From: Natrialbaceae archaeon AArc-T1-2
GTDB lineage: Archaea; Halobacteriota; Halobacteria; Halobacteriales; Natrialbaceae
Assembly (NCBI RefSeq): GCF_030273315.1
Contig: NZ_CP127174.1
Location: forward strand, 62,001-126,000
Direction: 5' to 3'
Length of the DNA stretch: 64,000 nt
Shown here: one piece after another, positions 19,482 to 26,857 of the stretch
Layout of the letters: every line of letters starts with the position of its first letter
Numbering within the stretch: position 1 is the stretch's first letter
Program-made: the position numbers and the translations under genes
The notes under the pieces: generated by a model
What the model saw: the letters and a program-made list of their open reading frames with translations, nothing else
What the model was told of the DNA's origin: nothing
The model's database searches: none

Positions 19482-20706
19482 ATGTCTACACCAGACAACG
19501 GCTCTGACACCAGTCAGGGCGGTCGAGTTCTTCCAGGGCACGTTAGATTCCACTAAGGAGATCGAGTCGGCTCGAGTCTTCGACACCACGTTGCGTGACG
19601 GGGAACAGTCCCCCGGCACCTCGTTTTCCTACGACGACAAACGCCAGATTGCCGCGATCTTAGACGAGATGGGGACCCACGTCATCGAGGCCGGGTTCCC
19701 CGTCAACTCCGACGCGGAGTTCGAGGCGGTGCGTGACATCGCCGAGAGTACGTCCGCGACGACCTGTGGACTGGCACGCGTCGTCGACGAGGATATCGAG
19801 GCCGCGCTGGATTCGGGCGTCGAGATGGTGCACACGTTCGTCAGCACCAGCGACGTCCAGATCGAAGATTCGATGCACGCGACTCGAGAAGACGTGTTGC
19901 AGCGTGCGGTCGAGTCGGTCGAACGGATCGTGGAGGCGGGAGCGACCTGTATGTTCTCGCCGATGGACGCGACCCGGACCGACGAGGCGTTCCTGATCGA
20001 GGTGATCGACGCGGTCACCGAGGCCGGAACCGACTGGATCAACATTCCGGACACCACAGGCGTCGCGACGCCGCGGCGGTACTACGACCTGATCGACAAG
20101 GTCACGGACCACACCGACGCGTACATCGACGTCCACACCCACGACGACTTCGGGCTGGCAACTGCGAACGCGCTCGCCGGGATCGAAGCCGGTGCCGACC
20201 AGGCGCAGGTTTCGGTCAACTCGATCGGCGAGCGCGCGGGCAACGCCGCCTACGAGGAGTTCGTGATGGCCGTCGAGTCGCTGTACCAGGGCGACACCGG
20301 AATCGACACGACCCGGATCAGCGAGCTATCGGCGATCGTCGAGGGGAAAAGCGGGATGGACGTCCCCGGCAACAAACCCGTCGTGGGCGAGAACGCCTTC
20401 TCCCACGAGAGCGGCATCCACGCTGCAGGCGTCATCGAGAACTCCGATACGTTCGAACCCGGCGTGATGACTCCCGAGATGATCGGCGCCGAGCGCCGAC
20501 TCGTGCTCGGCAAACACACCGGGACCCACTCGGTCCGCGAGCGGCTGGTAGAACGCGGATTCGATCCCACGGACGAACAGGTCCGTGCGGTTACCCGACG
20601 GGTCAAAGACTTCGGAGCCGAGAAACGCGACGTAACGGTCGCCGATCTCGAGCGATTCGCCGAGGAGGAAGGCGTCGAACGCGAGCGCGAGGAGGTGCGC
20701 GTTTGA
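19482..20706 (+). CDS. leuA: 2-isopropylmalate synthase (homocitrate/isopropylmalate synthase family), apparent 5' frameshift
   Basis: First committed step of leucine synthesis: 2-oxoisovalerate plus acetyl-CoA. The TIM-barrel motifs DTTLRDGEQSPG, HTHDDFGLATAN, VSVNSIGERAGNA and HESGIHAAGV are intact. The start predicted from the TATA box (ATG 19482, MSTPDNGSDTSQGG) is in a different frame from the rest. The conserved VEFFQGTLDSTKEIESARVF, which leads directly into DTTLRDGEQ, begins at 19522 in the main frame. The uninterrupted frame has no ATG before the DTTLRDGEQ motif, only TTG at 19591, which would remove a metal-binding residue. Frame must therefore change near 19517-19522. Sequencing error, real mutation or recoding are all possible. 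It heads the branched-chain block. Confidence 0.85.
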
Positions 20707-20790: not shown

Positions 20791-20796
20791 ATTATA
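20791..20796 (+). promoter_or_regulatory. TATA box of the ilv-leu leader transcript
   Basis: ATTATA at 20791-20796 in a GC-rich context. A start 25-27 nt downstream falls near 20818-20822, just before the ATG at 20824, so the leader ORF would be nearly leaderless. This implies a promoter for ilvB separate from leuA. Confidence 0.45.
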
Positions 20797-20823
20797 GTTG
20801 TCGGGTGCCGTATGACACTGATA

Positions 20824-20913
20824 ATGACGCGACGCCGACCGACCGTGGCTCACACGGCCGCAAGCGGCGCGTTCGCGTCCCTCCTTATCGTCGGTATTGT
20901 AGGGGCTCGATAG
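20824..20913 (+). CDS. Candidate branched-chain amino-acid leader peptide upstream of ilvB
   Basis: A 29-codon ORF starts at ATG 20824 (an in-frame ATG at 20812 would add four residues). It begins MTRRRPT and ends ASLLIVGIVGAR. Six of the seven residues in LLIVGIV, apart from one Gly, are Leu, Ile or Val. The codons are CTC CTT ATC GTC GGT ATT GTA; CTT, ATT and GTA are clearly less used in the neighbouring genes. The last codons GTC GGT ATT GTA GGG GCT form the 5' arm of a strong hairpin and the stop codon lies at its loop. The layout parallels bacterial ilv attenuator peptides, and the downstream genes make Val, Ile and Leu. Expression is unproven; chance and selection for the hairpin are the alternatives. 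Confidence 0.5.
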   Translation: MTRRRPTVAHTAASGAFASLLIVGIVGAR

Positions 20914-20928
20914 CCCCTCTATACCGAC
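20890..20928 (+). promoter_or_regulatory. Leader hairpin overlapping the end of the leader ORF
   Basis: GTCGGTAT (20890-20897) pairs with ATACCGAC (20921-20928), and AGGGGCT (20901-20907) pairs with AGCCCCT (20912-20918), leaving a 4-nt loop CGAT and a small internal bulge. That gives 15 base pairs. No T-run follows, so it is not a classic intrinsic terminator; it could act as an attenuator, processing site or regulator platform. Confidence 0.6.
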
Positions 20929-20999
20929 AGTTCCGTTCCGGATTCGCACCGTTTTCGAAGCGACACCCTCACCCACAAGGGCAGCTGACACGACTCGAG

Positions 21000-21029
21000 A
21001 TGGCACACACAACAGGAGGTCAGGAATGA
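21000..21029 (+). CDS. Nine-codon upstream ORF overlapping the ilvB start
   Basis: ATG 21000 opens MAHTTGGQE and stops at TGA 21027-21029, overlapping the ilvB ATG by 4 bp (ATGA). The ORF contains the Shine-Dalgarno sequence GGAGGT, so its translation could reposition ribosomes on ilvB. It may be only a by-product of the SD and start sequences. Confidence 0.25.
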   Translation: MAHTTGGQE

Positions 21030-22813
21030 GCGAACGCGTTGCACCGATCTCACGACACGAAGAACAGGATCGAAAGCAGGAGGCGACGGACGACCGACGA
21101 GCCGACGCAGACGGCGACGCCGAACCCGTCACGACGGGTGCCGAAGCGGTCGTCCGCGCGCTCGAGAACGCAGGCGTCGAGTACGCCTTCGGCGTCCAGG
21201 GCGGGGCGATCATGCCTGTCTACGACGCCCTGTACGATTCGGACATCTACCACGTGACGATGGCCCACGAACAGGGTGCGGCCCACGCCGCCGACGCCTA
21301 CGGCATCGTCTCTGGCGAGCCGGGGCTTTGCCTGGCGACATCCGGTCCAGGGGCGACGAACCTCGTCACCGGCATCGCAGACGCCGACATGGACTCGGAT
21401 CCGATGCTCGCGTTGACGGGACAGGTTCCGACGAACTTCGTCGGCAACGACGCCTTCCAGGAAACCGACACGACGGGCGTCACCGCGCCGATCACGAAGA
21501 ACAACACGTTCTCGACCGACGCCGATCGCGTCGGCACCGACGTCAGCGAGGCGTTCGCCCTCGCTCGCGACGGCCGTCCCGGGCCGACGCTGGTCGATCT
21601 GCCCAAAGACGTCACGAAAGGCGAGACCGACCGCGAGCCGGTCGAACCGACGACGCCCGAGACCTACGAGGTCCAGGAGGAGGCCGACTCCGAGATCGTC
21701 GAGGCGGCGGCTCGCCGGATCGAGAACGCGGAACGGCCCGTCATGCTGCTGGGCGGCGGCGTCATCAAAGGCGACGCCAGCGAGCAGTGCCGGGCGTTCG
21801 CGATCGAACACGAGATCCCGGTCATCACGACGATGCCCGGACTCGGCGCGTTCCCCGAAGATCACGAACTGTCACTCGAGATGGCCGGCATGCACGGCAC
21901 CGGCTACGCCAACATGGCGATCTCGATGTGTGACACGCTGATCGGGGTCGGCACCCGGTTCGACGATCGACTGACCGGCGGCATCGAGACGTTCGCGCCC
22001 GACGCCGAACTCATCCACGTCGACATCGACCCCGCCGAGATCTCGAAGAACATCCACGCGGAGTACCCGCTGGTTGGCGACGCCGCGACAGTGATAGAAC
22101 AGCTCGACGAGGCCGTCGAATCCTCACCGGAAGCGACGAAGTGGCGTGCCCAGTGCCAGCAGTGGAAATCGGAGTATCCGATGGAATATGAGGCACCGGA
22201 AGACGATCCGGTCAAACCGCAGTTCGTCGTCGAGGCCCTAGACGAGGCCACCGGCGACGACGCGATCGTCACCACGGGCGTCGGCCAGCACCAGATGTGG
22301 GCCTGCCAGTACTGGACGTACACCGAACCGCGCACCTGGGTCTCGAGTCACGGCCTGGGTGCGATGGGCTACGGCGTCCCGGCTGCGATCGGGGCCCGGC
22401 TCGCGGCCGACGACGACCAGGACGTGATCTGTGTCGACGGCGACGGCTCGTTCCTGATGACGATGCAGGAGCTGTCGGTCGCCGTTCGCGAGAACATGGA
22501 CATCACGTTCGTCGTGCTCAACAACGAGTACATCGGGATGGTTCGTCAGTGGCAAGATGCCTTCTTCGAGGGCCGACACGCCGCTTCGGACTACGGCTGG
22601 ATGCCGGAGTTCGACAAGCTCGCCGAGGCCTTCGGCGCGGAGGGGTACCGCATCGACGACTACGACGAGGTCGCAGACACCATCGAGGCCGCACTCGCCT
22701 ACGACGGCCCCGCAGTGATCGACGCACACATCGACCCCCGCGAGAACGTCTACCCGATGGTGCCAAGCGGCGGCGACAACGCACAGTTCGCACTGACGGA
22801 GGAGCAACTATGA
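21026..22813 (+). CDS. ilvB: Acetolactate synthase, large (catalytic) subunit
   Basis: ThDP enzyme of 595 residues, normal length, catalysing the first common step to Val and Leu (acetolactate) and to Ile (acetohydroxybutyrate). After a polar N-terminal extension of about 35 residues come the ThDP Pyr domain with the catalytic Glu in MAHEQGAAHAADAYG, the central FAD/Rossmann-like domain (PVMLLGGGVIKGD, IGVGTRFDDRLTGG) and the PP domain with VDGDGSFLMTMQEL...NNEYIGMVRQWQ. A GGAGGT Shine-Dalgarno lies 7 nt upstream. Stop overlaps ilvN (ATGA). Its long leader carries the leader ORF and hairpin described above. Confidence 0.96.
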   Translation: MSERVAPISRHEEQDRKQEATDDRRADADGDAEPVTTGAEAVVRALENAGVEYAFGVQGGAIMPVYDALYDSDIYHVTMAHEQGAAHAADAYGIVSGEPGLCLATSGPGATNLVTGIADADMDSDPMLALTGQVPTNFVGNDAFQETDTTGVTAPITKNNTFSTDADRVGTDVSEAFALARDGRPGPTLVDLPKDVTKGETDREPVEPTTPETYEVQEEADSEIVEAAARRIENAERPVMLLGGGVIKGDASEQCRAFAIEHEIPVITTMPGLGAFPEDHELSLEMAGMHGTGYANMAISMCDTLIGVGTRFDDRLTGGIETFAPDAELIHVDIDPAEISKNIHAEYPLVGDAATVIEQLDEAVESSPEATKWRAQCQQWKSEYPMEYEAPEDDPVKPQFVVEALDEATGDDAIVTTGVGQHQMWACQYWTYTEPRTWVSSHGLGAMGYGVPAAIGARLAADDDQDVICVDGDGSFLMTMQELSVAVRENMDITFVVLNNEYIGMVRQWQDAFFEGRHAASDYGWMPEFDKLAEAFGAEGYRIDDYDEVADTIEAALAYDGPAVIDAHIDPRENVYPMVPSGGDNAQFALTEEQL

Positions 22814-23464
22814 CAGGCGAACTCGAGGGACCCGCACCGGAGGAACGGAAACAGCCCGCGGGGAGACGTAACTCCCAGGGTATCCGCGTCGACCCGGACG
22901 TCGAGGCCGAACACGAGCCACGACGGACGGTCATCTCGGCGCTCGTCAAACACGAACCCGGTGTGCTCGCCGAGGCCTCTGGGCTGTTTTCGAGGCGGCA
23001 GTTCAACATCGAGAGTCTCTCGGTCGGCCCGACCGAGGACGAAGAGCGCGCCCGGATCACGATCGTCGTCGAAGAGCCCGATCCGGGAATCGATCAAGTC
23101 AAAAAGCAACTCCGCAAACTCGTCTCTGTGATCTCGGTGACCGAGCTTCCGGACGATGCGATGCGTCGGGAACTTGCGCTCATCAAGGTGAACGCGACGC
23201 GACCGGACCAGGTCGCTGCTGTCGCGGAGATGTACGACGGAACGACCGTCGATGCGAGCACCGAAACCGCGACCGTCGAGATCACCGGGAGTCGACAGAA
23301 GATCGACGCCGCCGTCGACACGTTCGAGCAGTTCGGCATTCGGGAAGTCTCCCGGACCGGGCTAACGGCGCTCGCTCGCGACACCGCAGACACCGCGGCG
23401 GAGACGCCGGCAGAAGCACAGTTCGACGAACCACAGACGACACCTCCAGAGACGACATCTGACG

Positions 23465-23472
<8 letters not shown>
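22810..23472 (+). CDS. ilvN: Acetolactate synthase, small (regulatory) subunit
   Basis: 220 residues. The ACT domain starts [33 protein letters not shown] (about residues 38-70), the hallmark of IlvN/IlvH, which confers valine feedback inhibition on IlvB. A second ALS-ss C-terminal domain follows (LALIKVNAT to about residue 190), then an acidic low-complexity tail. The start is the ATG overlapping the ilvB stop; the frame extension upstream is only mirror sequence of ilvB. Its end overlaps ilvC by 8 bp, indicating tight coupling. Confidence 0.95.
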
Positions 23473-24493
<1,021 letters not shown>

Positions 24494-24498
24494 GAGAC

Positions 24499-24807
24499 AT
24501 GACCGGAAACGACGCGACAGATCCGACGGCACGAACGACAGCGGATACGGCGGAATCGGACCGACAGCCGATGAGAGAGATCAGCCACACCAACCCTTAC
24601 ACAGGCGAAACGCTGGGCCAGATGTTCAGCCGCGGTCCGACCGTCGCTGCCGACGGCGGACGCGCAGACGCGAACGCGAATGCGGCCCCTGCCGACGAGC
24701 AGACGATGAGCGACGTCAGCCACACGCCGCCGAACGATTCCGAGGGCGCAAATCGCGTCTTCGAGCGTGGCCGAAACGTACCCGTAGACGTAGAGGACGA
24801 GGAATGA
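24499..24807 (+). CDS. Small protein with two 45-residue-spaced SHT-F.RG repeats, between ilvC and leuC
   Basis: 102 residues, no signal peptide. The protein is an internal duplication: M25, S29-H30-T31, P33, F43, R45-G46 recur exactly 45 residues later at M70, S74-H75-T76, P78, F88, R90-G91. Repeat 1 reads MREISHTNP and then QMFSRGPTV; repeat 2 reads MSDVSHTPP and then [10 protein letters not shown] flexible Ala/Asp linker joins them. ATG follows the ilvC stop by 5 nt, and the stop overlaps the leuC start (ATGA), so it is made with the pathway enzymes. I do not know a function. Its fixed position suggests a role tied to LeuCD or IlvC assembly or regulation (inference). Confidence 0.8.
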
Positions 24808-26225
24808 GCGAGCGGACACTGTACGACAAGGTCTGGGATCGACACACGGTGACCACGCTGCCGACCGGACAGGATCAACTGTTCGTCGGCCTCCATCTCA
24901 TCCACGAGGTCACGAGCCCGCAGGCGTTCGGAATGCTCCAGGAACGCGACCTCGAGGTCGCCTACCCCGAACTCACCCACGCGACGGTCGATCACATCGT
25001 GCCGACCTCGAGCAAGGAACGGCCCTACAGCGACGACGCCGCAGAGGAGATGATGGCCGAACTCGAGGAGAACGTCACCGAGGCGGGCATCGACTTCTCG
25101 CACCCTGAGACGGGCGATCAGGGCATCGTCCACGTCATCGGACCCGAACAGGGGCTGACCCAGCCGGGGATGACGATCGTCTGTGGGGACTCCCACACCT
25201 CGACCCACGGTGCCTTCGGTGCGCTCGCCTTCGGCATCGGCACCTCCCAGATCCGGGACGTGCTCGCGACCGGCACCGTCGCGATGGAAAAACAGCAGGT
25301 CCGCAAGATCCAGGTCGACGGCGAACTGCCGGAGGCCGTCGAAGCCAAAGACGTCATCCTCGAGGTCATCCGCCGTCTCGGTACCGAAGGTGGCGTCGGC
25401 TACGTCTACGAGTACGCCGGCTCCGCCATCGAGAACCTGGACATGGAAGGGCGGATGTCGATCTGTAACATGTCGATCGAGGGTGGCGCTCGCGCGGGCT
25501 ACGTCAACCCCGACGAGACCACCTACGGGTGGCTGAAAGAGACCGATTACTTCCAGGAAAACCCCGAGAAATTCGAGGAGCTCAAACCCTACTGGGAGTC
25601 GATCGCGAGCGACGAGACGGCAGAATACGACGACGTCGTCACCATCGACGCGAACGAACTCGAGCCCGTCGTCACCTGGGGGACGACCCCGGGCCAGGGC
25701 GTCGGCGTCACCGAACCGATCCCGGCACCCGAGGCGCTGCCCGCGGACAAGCAGGCGACGGCCGAACGTGCCCAAGAACACATGGGCGTCGAGCCCGGCG
25801 AGACGATGGCGGGCTATCCCATCGACGTCGCCTTCCTGGGTTCGTGTACGAACGCACGCCTGCCCGACCTCCGGCGGGCCGCCCGAATCGTCAAGGGTCG
25901 GGAGGTCGACCCCGACGTTCGCGCGATGGTCGTCCCCGGCAGCCAGCGCGTCAAAGCCGCCGCTGAAGAGGAAGGCTTAGACGAGGTCTTCACAGAAGCC
26001 GGCTTCGAGTGGCGCGGTGCGGGCTGTTCGATGTGTCTGGGCATGAACGAGGATCAGCTCGAGGGCGACGAGGCCTCGGCGTCGTCCTCGAACCGGAACT
26101 TCGTCGGCCGCCAGGGGAGCAAGGACGGCCGTACCGTCCTGATGAACCCGCGGATGGTCGCCGCGGCGGCGGTCAACGGCGAGGTCACTGACGTCCGCGA
26201 GATGAAAGAGGTGAGCCTGCAATGA
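24804..26225 (+). CDS. leuC: 3-isopropylmalate dehydratase, large subunit
   Basis: Aconitase-family subunit of 473 residues that, with LeuD, isomerises 2- to 3-isopropylmalate. It starts with [11 protein letters not shown], and has the active-site parts [21 protein letters not shown] and, for the 4Fe-4S cluster, [11 protein letters not shown] plus CSMCLGMN. The N terminus, length and motifs match the single-cluster LeuC2/HacA-type fold. Starts overlapping the small repeat protein and ends overlapping leuD, both by 4 bp. Confidence 0.96.
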
Positions 26226-26857
26226 GCGACGAGGTCGAGATTCCAAGCGTCGAGGAGGTATCGGGCACGGGCGTCGCGATCCGTGGCAACGACATCGACA
26301 CGGACCAGATCATCCCGGCCCGGTTCATGAAGGTCGTCACTTTCGACGGCCTCGGGCAGTTTGCCTTCTTCGACCAGCGCTTTACCGACGACGACGAGCA
26401 AAAAGACCACCCGATGAACGAGCCCGAGCATCAGGACGCCTCGGTGATGGTGGTCAACGCCAACTTCGGCTGTGGCTCCTCCCGTGAGCACGCACCCCAG
26501 GCGCTGATGCGCTGGGGAATCGACGCCCTGATCGGCGAGAGTTTCGCCGAGATCTTCGCGGGCAACTGTCTCGCACTCGGCATCCCGACCGTCGAGGCAG
26601 ACGAGGAGACGATCACCGACCTGCAAGCGTGGGTCGAGGACAACCCCGACGGCGAGATCGAGATCGACGTCGAGGCCGAGACGGTCACCTACGGCGATAC
26701 GGCCGTCGACGTCACCGTCGACGACGCCCAGCGTAAGGCCTTGGTCGAGGGCGTCTGGGATACGACCGCGCTGATGAAGGCAAATGCCAGCGAGGTCCGC
26801 AAAAAGGCCGAGGAGTTGCCCTACGTCGACGACGACGCGATTCCCGAGGCCGAGTAA
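26222..26857 (+). CDS. leuD: 3-isopropylmalate dehydratase, small subunit
   Basis: 211 residues. The swivel domain contains [17 protein letters not shown], and [13 protein letters not shown] is the conserved substrate-recognition loop. It forms the heterodimer with LeuC. Last gene of the ilv-leu run; a T-rich stretch 45 nt downstream probably ends the transcript. The C terminus has a short Asp/Glu extension typical of haloarchaeal proteins. Confidence 0.95.

Follow-up and report, generated by a model that had tools for sequence, protein, structure and literature searches.

The ilvB operon of the haloarchaeon studied here is likely preceded by a ribosome-mediated attenuator that senses charged tRNA through a short leader ORF, a proposal resting on comparative sequence evidence, without expression, transcript-end or ribosome data. 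Comparison between genomes shows the leader ORF and its frame, its branched-chain codons, a stop codon placed in the loop of a hairpin, the hairpin itself and a second ORF that overlaps with the start of ilvB. To simplify the presentation we will refer to the leader ORF as uORF1 and to the second ORF as uORF2; the window is the whole stretch of DNA analysed (64,000 nucleotides), and the window genome is G000, whose family as sampled here comprises 125 genomes in 29 genera. TATA box, uORF1 and hairpin all lie within the spacer between the end of leuA (20706) and the start of ilvB (Table 1). The peptide of uORF1 ends in SLLIVGIVGAR, and the fold of the 200-nt leader has z = -4.5, none of 200 dinucleotide shuffles being as stable.

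Table 1. Features of the ilvB operon leader and its surroundings; positions are those of the window, except for pheS, which is placed on G000 C1.
Feature	Position	Strand	Remarks
TATA box of the ilvB operon promoter, ATTATAG	20791-20797	+	read from sequence
uORF1 (leader ORF), 29 codons, MTRRRPTVAHTAASGAFASLLIVGIVGAR	20824-20913	+	stop codon TAG; predicted leaderless
Control codons CTC CTT ATC GTC GGT ATT GTA (LLIVGIV)	20881-20901	+	
Entire hairpin of the window genome, with private lower stem GUCGGUAU/AUACCGAC	20890-20928	+	sequence, fold
Conserved hairpin, upper stem AGGGGCU/AGCCCCU, loop CGAU	20901-20918	+	fold
Stop codon of uORF1, at loop and 3' arm	20911-20913	+	
Tract behind the hairpin	20918-20940	+	G-poor and C/U-rich in relatives; TTC weak in the window genome
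uORF2, MAHTTGGQE	21000-21029	+	TGA overlaps the ilvB ATG as ATGA
Shine-Dalgarno-like GGAGG 5' of ilvB	21015-21019	+	within uORF2; sequence
ilvB, acetohydroxyacid synthase large subunit	21026-22813	+	
ilvN	after ilvB, read through in the 22297-23472 frame	+	name from sequence, no family search
ilvC	23465-24493	+	name from sequence, no family search
leuC	24804-26225	+	name from sequence, no family search
leuD	26222-26857	+	name from sequence, no family search
pheS (G000 C1, locus L330)	1286374-1287306	-	leader MAPEPHSRCLARQPATRPGFGFFFAR, then stop

A preliminary description of this locus had claimed a TATA box at 20791 and a tiny ORF ending in the control run LLIVGIV; coordinates and codons were read directly and held. 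It had put the start at ATG 20824 or possibly 20812, and both are in frame, with 20824 favoured by its spacing from the TATA box and by the sequence AATGACG, which is conserved in relatives. Its statement that CTT, ATT and GTA are used sparingly by the neighbouring genes is borne out by codon counts in ilvB. The 15-bp hairpin that it described does fold, its full length being private to the window genome, and the position of the stop codon at the loop held in a refined form: U 20911 lies in the loop, and the A and G that follow are paired and begin the 3' arm. The absence of a T-run after the hairpin held for the window genome, weak TTC/TTTC being enriched in relatives. Non-conservation in close relatives, which would have refuted the idea, was not found, as ORF, frame, codons, stop in the loop and hairpin are all conserved, and the conserved leader reaches the other main haloarchaeal families, far wider than had been claimed.

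The distribution of the leader was established at loci chosen independently of its motif. ilvB is present in all 125 genomes of the window's family, and the order leuA-spacer-ilvB is kept in all 110 family loci compared. Each of the 110 leuA-ilvB spacers examined in this family carries the leader, an upstream ATG (in a few cases GTG) opening the frame that runs through GTAGGGG to a stop shortly after; typical family peptides are MTVRAPLSARVRTVDTSALAPIRIVGAF and MTRRVASPARTADSDAVATLIIVGAA, each ending at the stop. In other haloarchaeal families the leader was found at 47 of 47 loci picked through the position of ilvB and not through the motif, 15 of them from genomes without an exact-pattern match, which makes 157 motif-independent loci (110 + 47) across the main haloarchaeal families, all with the leader 5' of ilvB. 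The architecture common to them is a TATA box followed by a leaderless ORF of 13-40 codons ending in (I)IVG[A/V](x) and a stop, in which GTA GGG G serves as the 5' arm of the hairpin (GGGGC/GCCCC) and the loop contains the stop codon.

Pattern searches give the same picture. The exact pattern (ATYGTAGGGGYN{1,14}GCCCC) occurs in 293 of the 391 genomes sampled from the class, usually as a single copy, and the reversed pattern used as a control has almost no matches in the same sample; overall there is about one copy per genome, nearly always 5' of ilvB. A scan of bacteria and archaea with one genome per species returned at least 120 matches, among them Haloferax, Haloarcula, Halococcus, Natronomonas, Haloquadratum, Natrinema and others, with ilvB nearly always directly 3' and with the leader present in several Haloferax species. 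The few stray bacterial matches have neither ilvB nor the leader architecture, and in genomes of the phylum outside the order we see only a few chance-like matches, mostly with loops lacking an in-frame stop. Families f5 and f11, which are deep lineages, have no leader, and in them ilvB abuts leuA. It was observed separately that at loci L391-L394 of these two families the sequence directly 5' of ilvB reads as the LeuA C-terminal regulatory domain; gain of the leader and loss of that domain are perhaps linked.

That uORF1 is a reading frame and not merely an open stretch is indicated by the phase of its start codon. A TATA-like site is situated 22-35 nt 5' of an ATG in 231 of 253 leaders, a spacing that implies leaderless transcripts, and in 224 of these 231 the ATG is in frame with GTA, where chance would predict one third; the 231 leaders are related and hence are not independent trials. 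The in-frame starts are spread over 20 ORF lengths, which implies many insertions and deletions, all of them frame-keeping. We relied on this test because the open-frame statistic is weak evidence, frame +2 being likewise free of stops. At the other end, the stop codon (TAG, TAA and TGA are all used) follows GCN/GTN by 0-1 codons and lies in the loop in 168 of 184 leaders; the GGGG-to-CCCC loop ranges from 5 to 9 bases and the position of the stop is nonetheless kept in frame, whilst in 16 leaders the stop lies just beyond the hairpin, four residues further on. Upstream of the control codons, substitutions number 213, 221 and 214 at codon positions 1, 2 and 3 respectively (79 independent pairs), and from this equality it follows that the peptide sequence is not under selection, whereas the frame and the end are. 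Such neutral drift of the N-terminal part is what a leader ORF would be expected to show and fits the importance of translating uORF1 rather than that of its peptide. Translation itself is inferred, the support being indirect only (the conserved frame in 224/231 and the in-frame stop in the loop).

The codons at the end of uORF1 match the products of the operon. Of the last eight residues 55% are Ile, Leu or Val, as compared with 13% elsewhere in the ORF. In the set of 253 distinct leaders, which was partly gathered by motif and with which the 157 motif-independent loci agree, GTA is present in all 253 and is preceded by an Ile or Val codon in all 253 (ATT 219, ATC 31, GTA/GTC 3), so that both synonymous ATT/ATC and Ile/Val exchanges are seen. 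ATT thus makes up 88% of the codons before GTA as against 8.3% of the Ile codons in the ilvB genes of these loci, and GTA, at 100% in the leaders, is 0.9% of the Val codons there; CTT is 2.7% of the Leu codons. Pairing cannot account for the choice of GTA, since in 184 of 253 leaders neither the U nor the G of GUA is paired. Some points weigh against a sensor: the minimum control stretch is two codons only, the Val-Gly-Ala end results at least partly from the stem bases, and in two f12 genomes Phe or Ser precedes GTA, contrary to the Ile/Val rule; in one g31 genome the preceding codon is Leu (CTC). A separate and unexplained observation is that codon -2 (GGT at 20893-20895 in the window) has T as its third base in 223 of 253 leaders, against a background of 5%, and does so regardless of the amino acid (CGT, ATT, GGT). 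Slow decoding or a sequence element are possible causes.

The hairpin is predicted consistently, with GGGG paired to CCCC in 242 of 253 local folds; in 89% of transcript contexts the stem has a probability above 0.9. Conservation is limited to the upper stem, (A)GGGGC/GCCCC(U), and the lower stem of the window genome is absent from relatives. Compensatory changes, which the preliminary description had suggested looking for, are few within the main clade, whose nearly invariant stem leaves little room for covariation. The strongest support for the stem comes from altered stem bases in divergent lineages: the GTA codon and a hairpin persist in two f12 genomes and one g34 genome, with changed stems (GGUGC/GCGCC, GGCG/CGCC and GGGCC/GGCCC). 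Among 78 non-redundant family leaders we found no covarying alternative helix that might act as an antiterminator, and antiparallel helix candidates were no commoner in them than in a parallel control. One candidate alternative, pairing of the start-codon region with UAUUGU, was rejected as weak, AU-rich and not general. Neither the ilvB leader nor the pheS leader described below is matched by Rfam covariance models, and Pfam and NCBIfam, searched for a known small-protein or leader-peptide family, gave no match at E up to 10.

The sequence behind the hairpin is distinctive in composition. Its first 17 nt contain 5% G as compared with 24% further on, and TTC is found there in 69% of leaders as against 20% in the shuffled spacer, weak TTC/TTTC lying at about +12 to +16 in relatives. 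There is no real U-run after the hairpin, the longest T run within 40 nt being mostly 2-4, and none in the window genome. Terminators in Hfx. volcanii are made up of a T stretch and a C after it, and in a Haloferax reporter a hairpin brought 59% of transcripts to an end (PMC7237163); the tract resembles both of these types of terminator. The termination factor FttA prefers U-rich RNA, and it has been proposed that a coupled ribosome excludes it (PMC11616081). The G-poor TTC tract taken together with this literature makes termination plausible, if unproven. Pairing of the tract in the manner of an anti-Shine-Dalgarno sequence was also considered and rejected, as 4.4 bases against 4.2 in shuffles is not above chance. 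We also observed a conserved box, CGCAYCGTTTTCRGAGCGA, in the window (20945-20965) and in relatives, approximately 35-50 nt behind the hairpin and 27 nt before uORF2.

Of 184 leaders, 160 have a uORF2 of 8-40 codons that shares an ATGA with ilvB, its TGA running into the ATG of the latter; as a rule it starts 60-87 nt after the hairpin. In divergent lineages (L383, L388) the overlap is kept by means of TAG or TAA. uORF2 codes mainly for Thr, Arg, Pro, Ala and His, with Ile, Leu and Val together at about 2%. A Shine-Dalgarno-like motif is present in 163 of 253 leaders. The ATGA overlap, from which alone coupling is inferred, suggests that translation of uORF2 and ilvB is coupled, and a translational output of the leader remains conceivable.

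Independent backing for the sensor logic comes from an amino-acid-matched leader at another gene. At 20 of 30 loci from 12 families (the window genome, L327, L332, L333, L344-L350 and others), pheS is preceded by a leaderless ORF of some 25-29 codons that ends in GFGFFFA(x) and a stop. Behind its stop is a conserved helix with an internal loop, for which compensatory changes were noted by eye in 12 sequences, the alignment being restricted to plus-strand loci and the changes having no statistical test. Judging from sequence, this is probably a Phe-matched attenuator of Phe-tRNA synthetase. At trpC, trpS, ileS and hisG (19-30 loci each) there was no convincing same-amino-acid leader, which argues that the matched leaders are not an artefact of the scan, and leuA had no convincing matched leader either. 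Conservation and the pheS leader support the earlier suggestion that a ribosome controls whether the hairpin forms; a response of transcript ends or of ilvB expression to branched-chain supply has not been shown. An observation of a different kind concerns the start of leuA (19482-19560 in the window), where a +1 frameshift is apparently needed to make LeuA: in each of the 78 family genomes checked, a promoter-proximal ATG ORF (for example MSSQDNPSSDTSQGGRVLPGHVRFH, then stop) differs by one frame from LeuA (VEFFQGTLDST), and the frame junction TCAGGGNGGTCGAGTTCTTC is almost frozen at the nucleotide level. It is possible that this is a conserved programmed frameshift and not a sequencing error.

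In the model that we favour, whose translation, stalling, sign and output steps are all inferred, a leaderless mRNA would begin at about 20820 and uORF1 would be translated while the RNA is being made. When Ile-tRNA or Val-tRNA is scarce, the ribosome would stall at ATT/GTA and at the nearby Leu, Ile and Val codons, and with its A site at these control codons its leading edge would cover GGGGC and prevent the hairpin. With charged tRNA plentiful, the ribosome would reach the stop in the loop and leave, and the GGGGC/GCCCC hairpin would form before the G-poor C/U tract, lowering ilvB expression; we take the hairpin to be the repressing state because this is the usual logic of biosynthetic operons. 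The output would most likely be the end of transcription, brought about by the hairpin with its weak T-C signal or by RNA cleared for FttA, and less likely translation through uORF2, coupled to ilvB by ATGA.

Translation is the main rival to termination as the output, and it is a possible variant that overlaps with the attenuator reading: ribosomes finishing uORF1, or the hairpin, would set translation of uORF2 and through it of ilvB. It is favoured by the overlap of the uORF2 stop with the ilvB start (160/184, and kept with other stops in outliers), by the Shine-Dalgarno-like motif (163/253) and by the lack of a U-run. However, the hairpin lies 63-409 nt from ilvB, and as a rule 60-87 nt before uORF2, too distant to mask a start; pairing of the tract with a Shine-Dalgarno sequence does not go beyond shuffles, and the conserved G-poor, TTC-bearing tract would have no obvious role. 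We therefore consider termination the more likely output.

An arrest peptide, in which the nascent IVG[A/V] end would stall the ribosome in response to a free metabolite and not to tRNA charging, is unlikely. In its favour, these C-terminal residues are almost invariant and adjoin the stop. However, the residues upstream drift neutrally, with equal substitution at codon positions 1, 2 and 3, unlike arrest peptides, which need many conserved residues in the exit tunnel; Val-Gly-Ala is set by stem bases, and 16 leaders run four residues longer. Outlier ends differ (IRVRAAMAH, VSVGA, VLVGAL), and the pheS end is different again and matched to Phe.

It is very unlikely that GTAGGGGC-N-GCCCC is a DNA operator or the site of an RNA-binding protein with the ORF incidental to it, as might be suggested by a near-invariant inverted repeat present once per genome and by the T at codon -2 (223/253). 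Against this are a start and a stop that stay in frame although the ORF occurs in 20 lengths and the loop in several, the synonymous and Ile/Val exchanges at codon -1, the other stem bases in f12 and g34 and the Phe-matched pheS leader. A chance ORF and hairpin is all but excluded, being refuted by all of the conservation results with no point left in its favour.

Returning to the attenuator, a bolder reading, which we consider as apt to be wrong as right, is that haloarchaea evolved such attenuators (Ile/Val at ilvB, Phe at pheS) on their own stem with leaderless uORFs, and that the ilvB hairpin overlaps the control and stop codons and acts through FttA without a bacterial terminator/antiterminator switch. 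If true, this would give Archaea their first leader-peptide attenuation system and a case of regulatory transcription-translation coupling. Leader-peptide attenuation is a textbook bacterial mechanism, and to our knowledge there is no archaeal case; the preliminary description had said the same, and consistent with this no earlier report was found in the literature searched, which did not cover the Haloferax ribosome profiling and small-proteome papers. A lineage-wide, genetically tractable case would allow a direct test of whether RNA polymerase or its termination factor is under the control of archaeal ribosomes, a matter left open in a recent FttA structure paper (PMC11616081). The leader, if it acts as proposed, would explain haloarchaeal regulation of branched-chain synthesis, and the analysis adds two short ORFs per genome that are unknown to protein-family libraries.

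Among known systems, the E. coli pheST attenuator has a Phe-rich leader peptide, PheM, that precedes Phe-tRNA synthetase. The haloarchaeal pheS leader is alike in its Phe-rich end, GFGFFFA, whereas the RNA past its stop folds into another kind of helix, conserved and interrupted by an internal loop, that has no Rfam match. It also fits the transcript start and 26-aa uORF mapped before pheS (HVO_2948) in Hfx. volcanii (Babski et al. 2016, PMC4983044), a study in whose table ilvB is absent and which proposed no regulatory role or attenuation. uORF2 meets the criterion of a coupled upstream ORF in so far as its stop overlaps the start of the next gene, which shows overlap and not coupling itself. 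The closest comparison is with the bacterial ilv attenuators (E. coli ivbL-ilvBN and ilvL-ilvGMEDA; Corynebacterium ilvBNC, PMC11857589). These likewise have a short leader ORF ending with Ile/Val(/Leu) codons, directly 5' of acetohydroxyacid synthase genes, and a GC hairpin beside the control codons. The haloarchaeal leader differs in being leaderless, in having the control codons and stop inside the hairpin itself, and in having one hairpin with no antiterminator found, no U-run and a second ORF that overlaps with the start of ilvB. Clustering of product codons in a short ORF 5' of the operon is a feature of bacterial attenuators that the ilvB leader meets, and a U-run terminator and an exclusive antiterminator are features that it does not. 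Because it lacks these last two we do not class the ilvB leader as a bacterial-type attenuator, though we propose that it works alike.
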